NCBI GenBank assembly: GCA_040752395.1
Contig: JBFMHD010000163.1
Location: 1 to 6,280, forward strand
DNA length: 6,280 bases
Direction: 5' to 3'
Origin: JBFMHD01 sp040752395 [NCBI: Candidatus Hydrogenedentota bacterium]
Lineage (GTDB): Bacteria; JBFMHD01
How positions within the stretch are numbered: position 1 is the first letter of the stretch; each line of letters opens with the position of its first letter. Shown here piece after piece: positions 2,733-6,280 of the stretch. The notes under the pieces were generated by a model. That model ran no database searches. It was not told the DNA's origin and saw nothing but the letters and a program-made list of their open reading frames with translations. The position numbers and the translations under genes were made by a program.

Positions 2733-2737
2733 CTCCT
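2733..2737 (-). promoter_or_regulatory. Shine-Dalgarno of aconitase overlapping the sensor stop codon
   Basis: The minus strand reads TAGGAG: the TAG (2738-2736) ends the sensor gene, and AGGAG is the ribosome site for the aconitase ATG at 2722, ten bases further on. The overlap points to translational coupling of the two genes. Confidence 0.65.
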
Positions 2738-4049
2738 ATACTACTCCTGTTTTCAAGTTTTCGTATTCTAATGCATTGTTAATAGCATTAGCAAGTAGAG
2801 TGGATGCGAGTCGTGCTATGAGTTTATCCTTTTTCAAGAAGGGCTTATTATTAATTTTATTCCGAATCATAAAGACGCCAATGACCCTGCCTTTCGCAAC
2901 TAATGCTGCAATGAGTGCTACCCCTGGTTGCGGGTCATCAACAATAGTTGTGGTCCCGAATTCAGCAGTTAAACCTATATCGCTCTGTCCAACTTTAACT
3001 CTGATTGTTGAGAGTTCACTTTCAGAGATAACACCATTTTCATCATACCCGATTTTACCCACAAGTTCGTTGGTAGCCGAGTCAAGCAAAAAGAGGGTCA
3101 TAATTCTTACTTTCATCAACCTCACAATCGAACCCACAGCCATCTGTAGAACCTCACTTAAATCAAGTGTTGCGCCGATACGTTTAGCAATATCAAGCAG
3201 GTTAAAAAATTCCTGACCTGTTAATGGTTGTGGTCCTTCTTCACCGCTTTCCCCTGTTTCAACTTCTTTTTTCATTTTATCTATTTCGTGCTTGTATTTT
3301 CTCTCAAGTTCTAATTTAATATCTGATATAATTTCTTCGGTACCATCATTAATATTTTTACTTATAAAAAGGCTTGCAATAATCACAGAAGATATAAGAA
3401 CAATCGAGATTAAAAGTATAAAATTTCGAAGCTGAACAAAATCATAAAAGCTATCAACAGAGAACCCCACCCTGATGGCCCCCCATACAATAGAGTAATT
3501 ATTAATATTTATAGGAACTATTACATCAAGTACATCTCTGCCGCTACTTTTCAATCTTCGTTCAGTGCGTGTAAGCTGAGGCGGTATCTCTTGATAATTT
3601 GTTATCTCACCATCAGCGGTTCTTAATTTATGCAAACCTGCCTGCTGGTCGGCAAGTTCTGTTTTAACTCTTATTTTCTTGTAAACTTTTTGTTCGATCT
3701 CATCAACTTCAGCCCTTGTAATTTTACCAGAAAACTCTTCAGCAAGCGGAACACCATCACCATCAAGTATATATACATACACTATCTCGCCCTGCTCGCC
3801 TATATCACCTATTGTATTAGCCACAGCATCTCTTAAGGAACTTATATCGTTCTCTGCGATTTGTTTAGCATTGGATAATGCCATAATTTTGGGTATAAGT
3901 TCTGTTCTTCTTATAATCTCTTGTTCAAACTTTTCTTTATCAATATAATAAACAATAAAAACGATTATAATAGCAAGTATAACATTCAAAAGAGAGATGC
4001 CAATCACTTTAAAGCCGATGTTTAAATACTTTAATCTCTCCTCAGCCAC
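2736..4049 (-). CDS. Membrane-bound sensor protein with C-terminal GAF domain and no output domain
   Basis: A 437-residue protein starting at GTG. Seen in order: a first membrane helix at about 14-35; an extracytoplasmic region of about 175 residues; a second membrane helix at about 209-230; a charged, probably coiled-coil stretch at about 236-264; and a GAF domain at about 276-430. The external part has a Cache-like pattern: VYVYILDGDGVPLAEEF, and later DVLDVIVPI and WGAIRVGFS. GAF landmarks are TLDLSEVLQMAVGSIVRLM, GKIGYDENG, VIGVFMIRNK, F-L-K-K-D and ANAINNALEYENL. Proteins with this layout normally continue into a histidine kinase, GGDEF or SpoIIE domain, but this one stops seven residues after ALEYEN. 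It could act through a partner, or be the sensing half of a split protein. Architecture is seen; ligand and role are unknown. It is followed after 13 bp by aconitase, probably in one transcript. Confidence 0.85.
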   Translation of the reverse strand: MAEERLKYLNIGFKVIGISLLNVILAIIIVFIVYYIDKEKFEQEIIRRTELIPKIMALSNAKQIAENDISSLRDAVANTIGDIGEQGEIVYVYILDGDGVPLAEEFSGKITRAEVDEIEQKVYKKIRVKTELADQQAGLHKLRTADGEITNYQEIPPQLTRTERRLKSSGRDVLDVIVPININNYSIVWGAIRVGFSVDSFYDFVQLRNFILLISIVLISSVIIASLFISKNINDGTEEIISDIKLELERKYKHEIDKMKKEVETGESGEEGPQPLTGQEFFNLLDIAKRIGATLDLSEVLQMAVGSIVRLMKVRIMTLFLLDSATNELVGKIGYDENGVISESELSTIRVKVGQSDIGLTAEFGTTTIVDDPQPGVALIAALVAKGRVIGVFMIRNKINNKPFLKKDKLIARLASTLLANAINNALEYENLKTGVV

Positions 4050-4094: not shown

Positions 4095-4111
4095 AGAAGC
4101 AAGAAGCAAGA
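4095..4111. repeat. Short tandem repeat, 7-bp unit AGAAGCA, about 2.4 copies
   Basis: Two full AGAAGCA units followed by AGA. Such a short array could be chance on its own, but it shares the 7-bp period of the two larger arrays nearby. It lies about 45 bp upstream of the sensor gene start. Confidence 0.6.
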
Positions 4112-4140
4112 TAACGGAAGAAGTGAGAGGTATCAGGACG

Positions 4141-4168
4141 GGCTACAGGCTACAGGCTACGGACTACA
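4141..4168. repeat. Tandem array, 7-bp unit GGCTACA, four copies
   Basis: Heptamers GGCTACA, GGCTACA, GGCTACG and GACTACA follow one another without gaps. They are followed directly by GC-rich sequence: a 10-bp perfect palindrome CAGCCGGCTG at 4167-4176, then GGAGCC repeated at 4176-4181 and 4190-4195. The local G+C is clearly above that of the neighbouring genes. Confidence 0.93.
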
Positions 4169-4199
4169 GCCGGCTGGAGCCAAAAGCCCGGAGCCTGCT

Positions 4200-4252
4200 G
4201 AAAAGTCTCGAGTCTTGAGTCTTGAGTCTTGTTTTGACTCACGACTCTTTTC
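4200..4252. terminator. Imperfect inverted repeat, possible bidirectional terminator
   Basis: On the plus strand GAAAAG at 4200-4205 pairs with CTTTTC at 4247-4252. Inside this, two GAGTC blocks of the heptamer array can pair with GACTC at 4236-4240 and 4243-4247, leaving a small loop around TTGTTTT. Because the outer arms are an A-run and a T-run, either strand gives a hairpin near a short T stretch. It sits 60 bp past the secretin stop, so it could end that transcript. The T-runs are only four long and the left arm has unpaired bases, so terminator strength is uncertain. Confidence 0.5.
4204..4231. repeat. Tandem array, 7-bp unit AGTCTTG, four copies
   Basis: Four contiguous heptamers: AGTCTCG followed by three identical AGTCTTG. 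Part of the array forms the left arm of the inverted repeat at 4200-4252. Confidence 0.95.
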
Positions 4253-4258
4253 ATACTT

Positions 4259-4290
4259 TGTGCCTCTGTGCCTCTGTGCCTCTGTGCCTT
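4259..4290. repeat. Tandem array, 8-bp unit TGTGCCTC, four copies
   Basis: Four contiguous octamers; the first three are identical and the last ends in TT instead of TC. The array lies 22 bp past the secretin stop codon in the intergenic gap. The period of 8 is not a multiple of 3, and no reading frame is associated with it. Confidence 0.95.
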
Positions 4291-4311: not shown

Positions 4312-6280
4312 TTAATCCACAGTTATTTTGTCTTTAATTTTATTATACAACTCTTCGTCAATACCCGGGACATTCAGTAAACCTTCGTTCTTTTTAAAAC
4401 TTCCTTTTGAATCACGATAAGCTACAATCATTCTCGCCTGATATTCGCTAATACCCAATGTTTTCATCAGTTCTGTATACTCTGCTTTGTTTATATTAAC
4501 TTTAACCTCTTCCTTAATTTTTTCCTCTTTTACTACTCTTTCTTCCTTTTGTGGTTTCACTTTTACCTCAATCTTTGGTTCTTCTATGTATAAGTACTCA
4601 GTTAATTCAGGATGCGATTCTTTATCAATACCTGGTACATTATATACATCCTCAACTTTTTTATACAATCCATATTCATCTCTGTAAGCGATTATAAGCA
4701 TAGCCTCGAATTTAGTAAGTCCTGGTATTGTTTCTAATTCTTTTAACTGGGCTGTGTTCAAATTGACCTTTGTAATAGTTTCTTTTTTTTCAACAGGCTT
4801 AATGACTTCTATCTTTTCTTTTGGTTTTTCAATTTTTCGTTCCTCTGCAGGTATTTTTACTTTTTCTTTTTCTTCGGGTTTTACTTGCGGGATTCTTTCT
4901 TTTGGAACTTTAGTTTCGACCACATAGAGATAAGGTCTTGCTAATCTGTATATATCTTCATTAACTCCAGGGACAAGCAGTAAATCCTCAAGCTGTCTAA
5001 AATTACCGTATTTTTCTCTATAAGCTACTATAAGTTTAGCAATAGCTTCATCAATACCAGGTATTTTTTTAAGTTCTTCGAAATTTGCAGTATTCAGGTT
5101 TAAGAATATTTTTTCTTTTTCTATACCAATCGGCTGGTCAGGACCATTAAAGTCAACAACATAATCAGATAATAAAGGATATTTAGCTTTTTCGTCTTCC
5201 ATCTGGGCAACATAAGCTTCTGGCCGAATTATTCTCGGAGTTATAAAAATAAGAGTTTCATTATTGACTCGATTAGTAGTTTTTGTTTTAAATAAATTAC
5301 CAAGTACAGGGATATCACCCAGAACCGGGACCTTGCTTACTGTTACATCTTCTGACCCCTGAATCAATCCGCCAATTATTAAAGTATAACCATCCTGAAT
5401 CAAGACTTTAGTATTTGCGCTGCTTGAGCTTACTGGCACCTGCCCGGTTGACGTAGGTTTGCCAGCAGGTATGTCAATCTGTGGGTTCACCTCAAGTTCA
5501 ATAATATTGTCATCACCTACATGAGGTGTAACTGTAAGCGTTATAGGTACTCGCTGAGTACTTGGGATCTGGTAAGGTTGACCCGTAACCGGGTCTTTTT
5601 CAATTGTATATGTTGGGAACTCCTGTCCGATATCAATAGTAGCCTCTTTATTATCAAGTACTACAACCTTTGGACTTGCGATGACATTCACAGAGGTGTA
5701 TTGAGCTAATGCATTGAGTAAGCCCTGTAAATCGCCAACAGAGCTCAAAGGGTTATTGGGGTCAGCAAAATTTACCACAGCAAACCTTAATGTTGCGCCA
5801 ACATTTGCAGTAGAACCAATATTCATTTTTATATATTCATCTGTCCCGAATCTCAGGTTCTCATTAATAAATTTTAAGCTCGGTATATACTGCCACTCAA
5901 TACCAAGAGACTCAGCATTTGATAATTGAACACTTGCAACAACCGCTTCAATTAATACCTGTGGGATACGGCAATCAAGGTGTTCTAACACTTCGTCTAC
6001 TTTGTTTATTACTTCAGCTGATGCTGTAATTATAAGCGAATTTGTTCTCTCATCAACCTCAAGTGTTCCGCCGTTATCAGTTAAAAACGAGGAGATAGGA
6101 GTATTTATATCAGCTGGCTGAACAAACTTAAGTTTCCGAACGACAGTTACCCTCTTAGTATCAAGTTCTTTAACTACATCAGCTATTTTAGTGTATATCT
6201 TTTCATCATCGATAAATGCTACGGCATTCTGCTGGTCTAATGCAAAAAAATTGATTCCCGGGAATAAATCTGTAAGGGTT
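4312..6280 (-). CDS. Secretin (PilQ/GspD type) with three C-terminal ComEA-like HhH modules, 5' partial
   Basis: Outer-membrane channel protein of the secretin superfamily, which forms the gated pore of type IV pili, type II secretion and DNA uptake. The frame is open to the right edge (655 codons visible), so the true start lies outside the window. A GTG at 5991 falls inside the domain and is not the start. Visible residues 1-103 are the end of the periplasmic N domains, including the PilQ-like VDERTNSLII motif. Residues about 104-354 are the secretin domain (QVLIEA, then the signature VPVLGDIPVLGNLFK at 317-331, then LIFITPRIIRPE). Residues 392-452, 504-565 and 593-654 are three ComEA-like double-HhH modules, each opening with a VN(I/L)N-type strand and containing a (V/I)AYR(E/D) helix and VPG(I/V). 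K/E/P-rich linkers separate them. PilQ proteins normally end after the secretin domain. Secretin identity is seen and secure. A role in DNA uptake is inference, since GspK-type proteins use a similar fold for protein contacts. Confidence 0.93.
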   Translation of the reverse strand, partial: TLTDLFPGINFFALDQQNAVAFIDDEKIYTKIADVVKELDTKRVTVVRKLKFVQPADINTPISSFLTDNGGTLEVDERTNSLIITASAEVINKVDEVLEHLDCRIPQVLIEAVVASVQLSNAESLGIEWQYIPSLKFINENLRFGTDEYIKMNIGSTANVGATLRFAVVNFADPNNPLSSVGDLQGLLNALAQYTSVNVIASPKVVVLDNKEATIDIGQEFPTYTIEKDPVTGQPYQIPSTQRVPITLTVTPHVGDDNIIELEVNPQIDIPAGKPTSTGQVPVSSSSANTKVLIQDGYTLIIGGLIQGSEDVTVSKVPVLGDIPVLGNLFKTKTTNRVNNETLIFITPRIIRPEAYVAQMEDEKAKYPLLSDYVVDFNGPDQPIGIEKEKIFLNLNTANFEELKKIPGIDEAIAKLIVAYREKYGNFRQLEDLLLVPGVNEDIYRLARPYLYVVETKVPKERIPQVKPEEKEKVKIPAEERKIEKPKEKIEVIKPVEKKETITKVNLNTAQLKELETIPGLTKFEAMLIIAYRDEYGLYKKVEDVYNVPGIDKESHPELTEYLYIEEPKIEVKVKPQKEERVVKEEKIKEEVKVNINKAEYTELMKTLGISEYQARMIVAYRDSKGSFKKNEGLLNVPGIDEELYNKIKDKITVD
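4318..4503 (-). other. ComEA-like HhH module 3 of the secretin
   Basis: About 62 residues from VNINKAEYTELMKTLG through IVAYRDSKG, then FKKNEGLL and VPGIDEELY. The protein ends one residue after the module. The first hairpin is the most diverged of the set: TLGIS replaces the IPG seen in modules 1 and 2, and NKA replaces NTA. The linker before it is about 27 residues, rich in Lys, Glu and Val. Confidence 0.82.
4585..4770 (-). other. ComEA-like HhH module 2 of the secretin
   Basis: About 62 residues from VNLNTAQLKELETIPG through IIAYRDEYG and VEDVYNVPGIDKE. It aligns by eye with module 1 across its full length. The hairpins read GLT and GID. It is separated from module 1 by a linker of about 50 residues that is very rich in Lys, Glu and Pro. 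Confidence 0.85.
4924..5106 (-). other. ComEA-like HhH module 1 of the secretin
   Basis: About 61 residues starting LNLNTANFEELKKIPG, then a helix with IVAYREKYG, FRQLEDLL and VPGVNEDIY. This is the double-HhH pattern of ComEA (N-T-A, then L-x-x-hPGh, then A-x-x-I-h-x-Y-R, then G-x-F/Y, then V-x-G-h). The hairpins read GID and GVN where DNA-binding HhH proteins usually have GIG. The module starts about 35 residues after the end of the secretin domain. Confidence 0.85.
5218..5970 (-). other. Secretin barrel domain within the secretin gene
   Basis: This segment encodes the conserved pore-forming domain, from RIPQVLIEA to LIFITPRIIRPE. It has the usual landmarks in order: the IEA strand, VNVIASPKVVVLDNKEA, a Ser-rich NTKVLIQDG stretch followed by IIGGLI, and the VPVLGDIPVLGNLFK signature. 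The length of about 250 residues is normal for the family, and no disabling change is visible, so the pore itself looks intact. Confidence 0.92.

Follow-up and report, generated by a model that had tools for sequence, protein, structure and literature searches.

The 6,280-nucleotide stretch analysed here, called the window (positions 1 to 6,280 of contig JBFMHD010000163.1, assembly GCA_040752395.1, from a Candidatus Hydrogenedentota bacterium), carries on its minus strand a gene in which a secretin is fused to three helix-hairpin-helix (HhH) modules of the type found in the DNA-uptake protein ComEA. The fusion, proposed by a sequence-only reading of the window together with the coordinates and number of the modules, is confirmed: a single open frame in the list of open reading frames runs without interruption from position 6279 to its stop codon (4312-4314), with 655 visible codons and neither stop nor break between 5106 and 5218, and the profiles of Pfam and NCBIfam bear out both the fusion and the three modules. 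The frame is open up to the window edge (6279), with the 5' end of the gene beyond it. Tentatively, the modules are read as tethered docking modules for a protein partner, a reading favoured over the capture of DNA, which is itself a possible role. The gene and its parts, numbered by residues of the visible frame, are as follows.

4312..6279, minus strand: secretin-HhH fusion gene (open frame and Pfam domains; 5' end off the window)
5965..6144, minus strand: Secretin_N domain, residues 46-105 (PF03958, 52.8 bits, best of two stretches)
5224..5712, minus strand: Secretin domain, residues 190-352 (PF00263, 146.4 bits, full profile 1-169)
5110..5223, minus strand: post-secretin segment, residues 353-390 (end of the BLASTP alignment to GspD, and C-terminal model)
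4921..5109, minus strand: HhH module 1, residues 391-453, hairpins GID and GVN (profile; mean predicted local distance difference test score, pLDDT, of 88.6 in the model)
4774..4920, minus strand: linker 1, residues 454-502, rich in K, E and P (mostly pLDDT <50 in the model)
4585..4773, minus strand: HhH module 2, residues 503-565, hairpins GLT and GID (profile)
4507..4584, minus strand: linker 2, residues 566-591, rich in K and E (mostly pLDDT <50 in the model)
4318..4506, minus strand: HhH module 3, residues 592-654, hairpins GIS and GID (profile)

A secretin continuing into ComEA-type modules

The Secretin and Secretin_N domains exceed their Pfam cut-offs of 27.5 and 28.2 bits by a wide margin. 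The GspD profile (TIGR02517, 227.3 bits) and the PilQ profile (TIGR02515, 184.3 bits), both scored on a fragment, stay below their cut-offs of 351.35 and 284.35. Escherichia coli GspD aligns better than HofQ (141 versus 83.6 bits), with 29% identity to the fusion protein over 369 alignment columns, and by these comparisons the secretin part is closer to GspD than to PilQ. E. coli GspD aligns up to residue 364, equivalent to GspD residue 607 of 650 and 43 residues before the GspD C-terminus, and the post-secretin segment presumably occupies the position at which GspD has its S-domain; in the model of the C-terminal part, residues 353-390 consist of low-confidence helices and then a disordered stretch, and may form a short S-like segment. 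The C-terminus of a secretin lies outside the barrel and not in its lumen, which makes it doubtful that the modules are built into the channel, as had been suggested. Secretins are described as multimeric outer-membrane rings that are mostly periplasmic apart from the membrane rim (PMC6532946, in the excerpt used). Together these two properties would give each ring subunit three modules that surround the barrel base on its periplasmic side.

GC content is highest at codon position 1 in all seven segments of the fusion frame, linkers included. Methionine codons occur only at residues 152, 360, 527, 605 and 617; no ATG lies just upstream of module 1 in the scanned fusion frame (where GTG or TTG could still serve as a start), and no signal peptide before module 1 is evident by eye. 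These features, together with the lack of a stop through the junction, both linkers and all three modules, argue against the joining of a secretin gene and a separate HhH gene by an assembly or sequencing error. Such an artefact is very improbable, even considering that the fusion is known from one contig of one assembly and that no relative with the same fusion was found in the searches made.

The Pfam family HHH_3 matches the fusion protein in three stretches (172.6 bits in total, E 1.7e-51, cut-off 27), and modules 1, 2 and 3 taken singly score 66.2, 52.7 and 70.0 bits, each above the cut-off. The ComEA repeat model of NCBIfam (TIGR00426) likewise matches in three stretches (138.7 bits, cut-off 53.1). 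The curated model of the comEA protein (TIGR01259) gives 138.2 bits, below a cut-off of 152.35 that is passed by none of 61 genomes of the Clostridium phylum and by one of 14 control genomes (the Clostridium phylum is that of genome G002, and Bacteroidota is the label given to the phylum of the Kordia genome G001). Pairwise identity is 42-48% between the modules and Geobacillus ComEA and only 40-41% among the modules themselves, so they are not recent copies of one another. HHH_3, TIGR00426 and a structural match to Geobacillus ComEA (8dss) thus agree with the earlier assignment of the modules to a ComEA-like type. The fusion protein as a whole also exceeds the Pfam cut-offs for T2SSK (33.5 bits, cut-off 24.2) and PsbU (36.5 bits, cut-off 24.5), as does module 2 alone for PsbU (27.1 bits), and it scores 26.8 bits against NF037980 (cut-off 130). 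The net charges of modules 1, 2 and 3 are -1, -5 and 0; net charge was dropped as an indicator of DNA binding, ComEA modules being by eye slightly acidic too.

AlphaFold2 predicts module 1 as four helices. When the C-terminal 306 residues were modelled together, all three modules came out folded, with charged, disordered linkers between them; with a predicted template modelling score of 0.29 and pLDDT mostly <50 in the linkers, no arrangement of the modules relative to one another is predicted. The alignments that fed these models had 6 and 7 rows. In a sequence search of the PDB, the lowest whole-sequence E belonged to EEPD1 (9yi2, 9.5e-16 over two stretches), followed by ComEA 8dss, which gave the best single stretch (45.6 bits, versus 36.0 bits for EEPD1).

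Hairpin residues and DNA binding

The third-position glycine of the hairpin (GxG) is absent from all six hairpins of the window modules. In the numbering of Vibrio cholerae ComEA, modules 1, 2 and 3 have D, T and S at position 60, A, F and Y at position 62, and I, E and Q at position 63, so that none of the three has K or R at 62 or 63, and all three keep the arginine equivalent to R71. The comparison set was 49 distinct modules from frames of up to 300 amino acids (aa), identical sequences being counted once, in loci that were mainly the best matches of TIGR01259 and PF03934 and not a random draw; the module profile had six seeds, three of them window modules, and modules from frames of 300-600 aa (two) and of at least 600 aa (20) were tallied separately. 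In the short frames the third-position glycine is present in 46 of 49 first hairpins and 43 of 49 second hairpins, the R71-equivalent arginine in 49 of 49, and K or R at position 62 or 63 in 18 of 49 (at position 63 in 12). Both glycines are missing from three of the 49 modules, all three belonging to Kordia-phylum proteins with several modules (L029 and L008). Among short frames, then, the glycine serves well as a marker and the lysine poorly; both are missing from the window modules, which keep the arginine. Several short-frame modules read like GIGPALAQRI rather than carrying the K164/K63 lysine, and L029, a 260-aa frame, has three HhH modules, two of them with neither third-position glycine.

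Hairpins lacking the glycine also occur in other proteins. The one hairpin of E. coli GspK that could be aligned reads GIT, and the second module of EEPD1 lacks both third-position glycines (GLS, GIN). Serine takes the place of the glycine in some DNA-binding HhH hairpins, as in UvrC. According to the excerpts used here from studies of ComEA itself, in V. cholerae K62/63A abolishes DNA binding in vitro as well as transformation, K63E and G60E abolish transformation, G60V is not harmless either, unlike G60A, and a structural role is ascribed to R71 (PMC3879209). In Bacillus subtilis, K164, the equivalent of K63 and the best-conserved lysine of ComEA, appears to be central, and a docked model of the Geobacillus protein has many backbone hydrogen bonds to phosphates (PMC9747964). 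From the sequences compared, the manner of contact with DNA may differ across ComEA-like proteins.

A parallel is found in Bacteroidota. A screen in Riemerella anatipestifer, as excerpted, identified RA0C_RS02645, a predicted periplasmic protein with three HhH domains, as essential for natural transformation (PMC8459023). In the Kordia order, proteins of about 300 aa (L106-L115, the ten best-ranked loci of 30 with a match) have, by eye, a hydrophobic N-terminal stretch followed by three HhH-like modules, and their length and layout suggest that they belong to the same family as RA0C_RS02645. GxG is found in the first hairpin of the middle module in nine of the ten aligned members, the other five hairpins being mostly degenerate with a third-position glycine just once, in L113; the corresponding hairpin of the window reads GLT. 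L008 of Kordia (296 aa) is matched at E 1e-3 in 43 of the 60 genomes of the order, a count that includes its own genome.

Protein docking, DNA capture and secretin assembly

The HhH-fold parts of GspK and PsbU have protein-docking roles, and PsbU functions outside the cytoplasm. By analogy, the fusion protein would form an outer-membrane secretin ring in which the C-terminus of each subunit bears three ComEA-type modules on flexible charged linkers, and these modules would hold a protein partner at the ring; such a partner might be a subunit of a pilus or pseudopilus, an assembly factor that stands in for a pilotin, or a component of the inner membrane. Docking is placed ahead of the other readings because the HhH core is kept while none of the six hairpin glycines and none of the three DNA-contacting lysines is present, and the T2SSK and PsbU scores, the structural matches to PsbU, the GspD-like secretin and the disordered linkers were counted as further support. 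The sequence-only reading had offered GspK-like docking as an alternative to its DNA-capturing "brush"; given the degenerate hairpins and the GspD-like secretin, this alternative is rated at least as good as DNA capture, and the brush is not supported by its residues. The 36-45 modules per pore given for the brush follow arithmetically from an assumed ring of 12-15 subunits.

The closest known systems compare with the fusion protein as follows. ComEA of V. cholerae, B. subtilis and Geobacillus stearothermophilus shares with it the double-HhH module and R71, but is a stand-alone protein with one module, whereas the window protein has three, fused to a secretin and without the glycines or the K63 lysine. 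GspD and PilQ share the Secretin_N and Secretin domains, but an HhH match is found in none of 40 other secretin frames. GspK resembles the modules in its HhH-like hairpin without the third-position glycine, and the window protein passes the T2SSK cut-off as a whole though not module by module, but the HhH part of GspK sits on a minor pseudopilin rather than after a secretin, and the structural match is weak. RA0C_RS02645 and L106-L115 have three modules, predicted to be extracytoplasmic, with mostly degenerate hairpins; unlike the window protein, L106-L115 have a hydrophobic N-terminal stretch in place of the secretin and keep one canonical hairpin. EEPD1, with its glycine-free second module, is a member of the endonuclease/exonuclease/phosphatase family with two modules, and PsbU, an HhH-fold protein whose Pfam cut-off is passed by module 2, is a subunit of photosystem II.

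Several observations weigh against docking. Per module, the HHH_3 score is far above those for T2SSK and PsbU, and taken one at a time the modules stay below the T2SSK cut-off (18.7 bits or less). The best structural match of the module 1 model is Geobacillus ComEA 8dss (E 5.1e-6), followed by Tex and Thermus 2duy and then by PsbU chains, with the pseudopilin complex XcpVWX (6utu) at rank 23 (E 0.45) and GspK (3ci0) at rank 40 (E 1.5). With K or R at position 63 in only 12 of 49 short-frame modules, absence of the K63 lysine alone means little. The 20 modules of frames of at least 600 aa, presumably Tex-like from their length, have the first glycine in nine cases and the second in 19. G60A is harmless in V. 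cholerae (PMC3879209), and by analogy with the Bacteroidota proteins, arrays of mostly degenerate HhH modules can belong to DNA uptake. These points bear on the second reading, which is possible at somewhat lower probability than docking: the modules would hold double-stranded DNA as it enters the periplasm and form a pore-anchored ratchet that does the work of a separate ComEA. In its favour are the assignment of the modules to HHH_3 and ComEA by profile and to ComEA by structure, the service of both ComEA and PilQ in DNA uptake (PMC3879209 and PMC7545093, as excerpted), the requirement for a three-HhH protein in Riemerella, and Thermus 2DUY, in which positions 62 and 63 are likewise without lysine. 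The missing glycines and lysines lowered its standing, weighed together with the comparisons to EEPD1, the long frames and UvrC: positions 60 and 63 have other residues in the window where substitutions in V. cholerae abolish transformation, the Bacteroidota family keeps one GxG hairpin where the window has none, and no sign of a competence or pilus gene was seen among the four window frames that were scanned with profiles (the fusion and three downstream). The more specific version, in which three ComEA-derived modules per subunit, with non-canonical hairpins, catch DNA where it leaves the pore and take over from a diffusible ComEA, so that the secretin has a DNA ratchet of its own, is rather unlikely.

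An improbable third role is in assembly, the C-terminal array replacing both S-domain and pilotin in subunit targeting or spacing and having no role in handling cargo. To our knowledge, no interaction of a pilotin through HhH modules has been described, which was counted against this role, as was the possibility that residues 353-390 still form a short S-like segment. The location of the array, after the end of the GspD alignment 43 residues short of the GspD C-terminus, is consistent with it, as is the excerpted report that the pilotin EpsS acts through the S-domain of EpsD and that ExeD without its S-domain assembled very poorly (PMC6532946). Protein docking is retained as the preferred reading.

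Distribution, neighbouring genes and significance

Among the matches listed, no secretin-to-HhH junction within one confirmed secretin frame was found in the Kordia phylum (296 genomes, matches in 247) or in the Clostridium phylum (199 genomes, matches in 193), and neither of the two genomes of the class of G329 has a fused match. Within 148 loci, several of which cover the same gene and which, judged from their lengths, extend about 1.5 kb past the match when they come from genome searches, 40 frames match the secretin part of the fusion protein (E 1e-3) and 105 an HhH profile (E 0.01), and none matches both. A search of genome contigs with the fusion protein returned three Clostridium ComEA-like loci and one Kordia secretin. 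The full protein found no relative among viral contigs, where the module alignment matched three short HhH frames (122-187 aa). Plasmid records matched by the full protein numbered 926, and none of the 20 listed covered 80% of the query; a search with only the C-terminal part gave 20 plasmid and 22 phage records, again without any coverage of 80%. Some matches that looked fused were set aside: the frames in G067, G079, G063 and G189 (165-190 aa) are too short for a secretin, the frame L100 of G060:C16 has an HhH module near its start and no secretin match, and the match in G337:C2 ends before module 1 and has an internal stop. No title or abstract start among the literature matches listed describes a secretin fused to HhH or ComEA modules, and an excerpted survey of 197 proteobacterial type IVa pilus secretins gives AMIN, N0, N3 and secretin as the dominant architecture (PMC7545093). 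Outside the phylum of the window, which is where the searches were made, the fusion appears to be rare; the earlier impression that the architecture is not a standard one agrees with its not having been found elsewhere in the genomes, loci and literature searched.

The gene that follows the fusion gene on the minus strand (2736-4049) encodes a protein with a GAF domain at its C-terminus (GAF_3, 31.4 bits, cut-off 27) and, by eye, membrane stretches. Between the two genes, at 4095-4289, are tandem repeats of AGAAGCA, GGCTACA, AGTCTTG and TGTGCCTC, with 2.4-4.1 copies each. Further along the minus strand are a 647-aa aconitase (779-2722), with best identities of 67% in the phylum of G329 and 50% in the phylum of G001 (61 genomes each) and a degree of conservation too high for taxonomic placement, and two overlapping hydrophobic frames, 111-347 (78 aa) and 292-798 (168 aa); the 168-aa frame matches PMT_2 only at E 0.17. 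By eye, the two frames are possibly pieces of one membrane protein separated by a frameshift. No Rfam family reaches its gathering score in the window.

Natural transformation still poses the questions of what draws DNA through the outer membrane and of whether the ratchet in the periplasm is in contact with the pore. The fusion is unusual and bears on these questions, and the DNA-capture reading is weakened. A natural fusion of pore and ComEA-type module would link the two physically, in one object that can be purified. Should the modules dock a protein instead, the fusion may indicate a further partner of the secretin ring and would show that ComEA-type modules have been reused for protein contact in the cell envelope.
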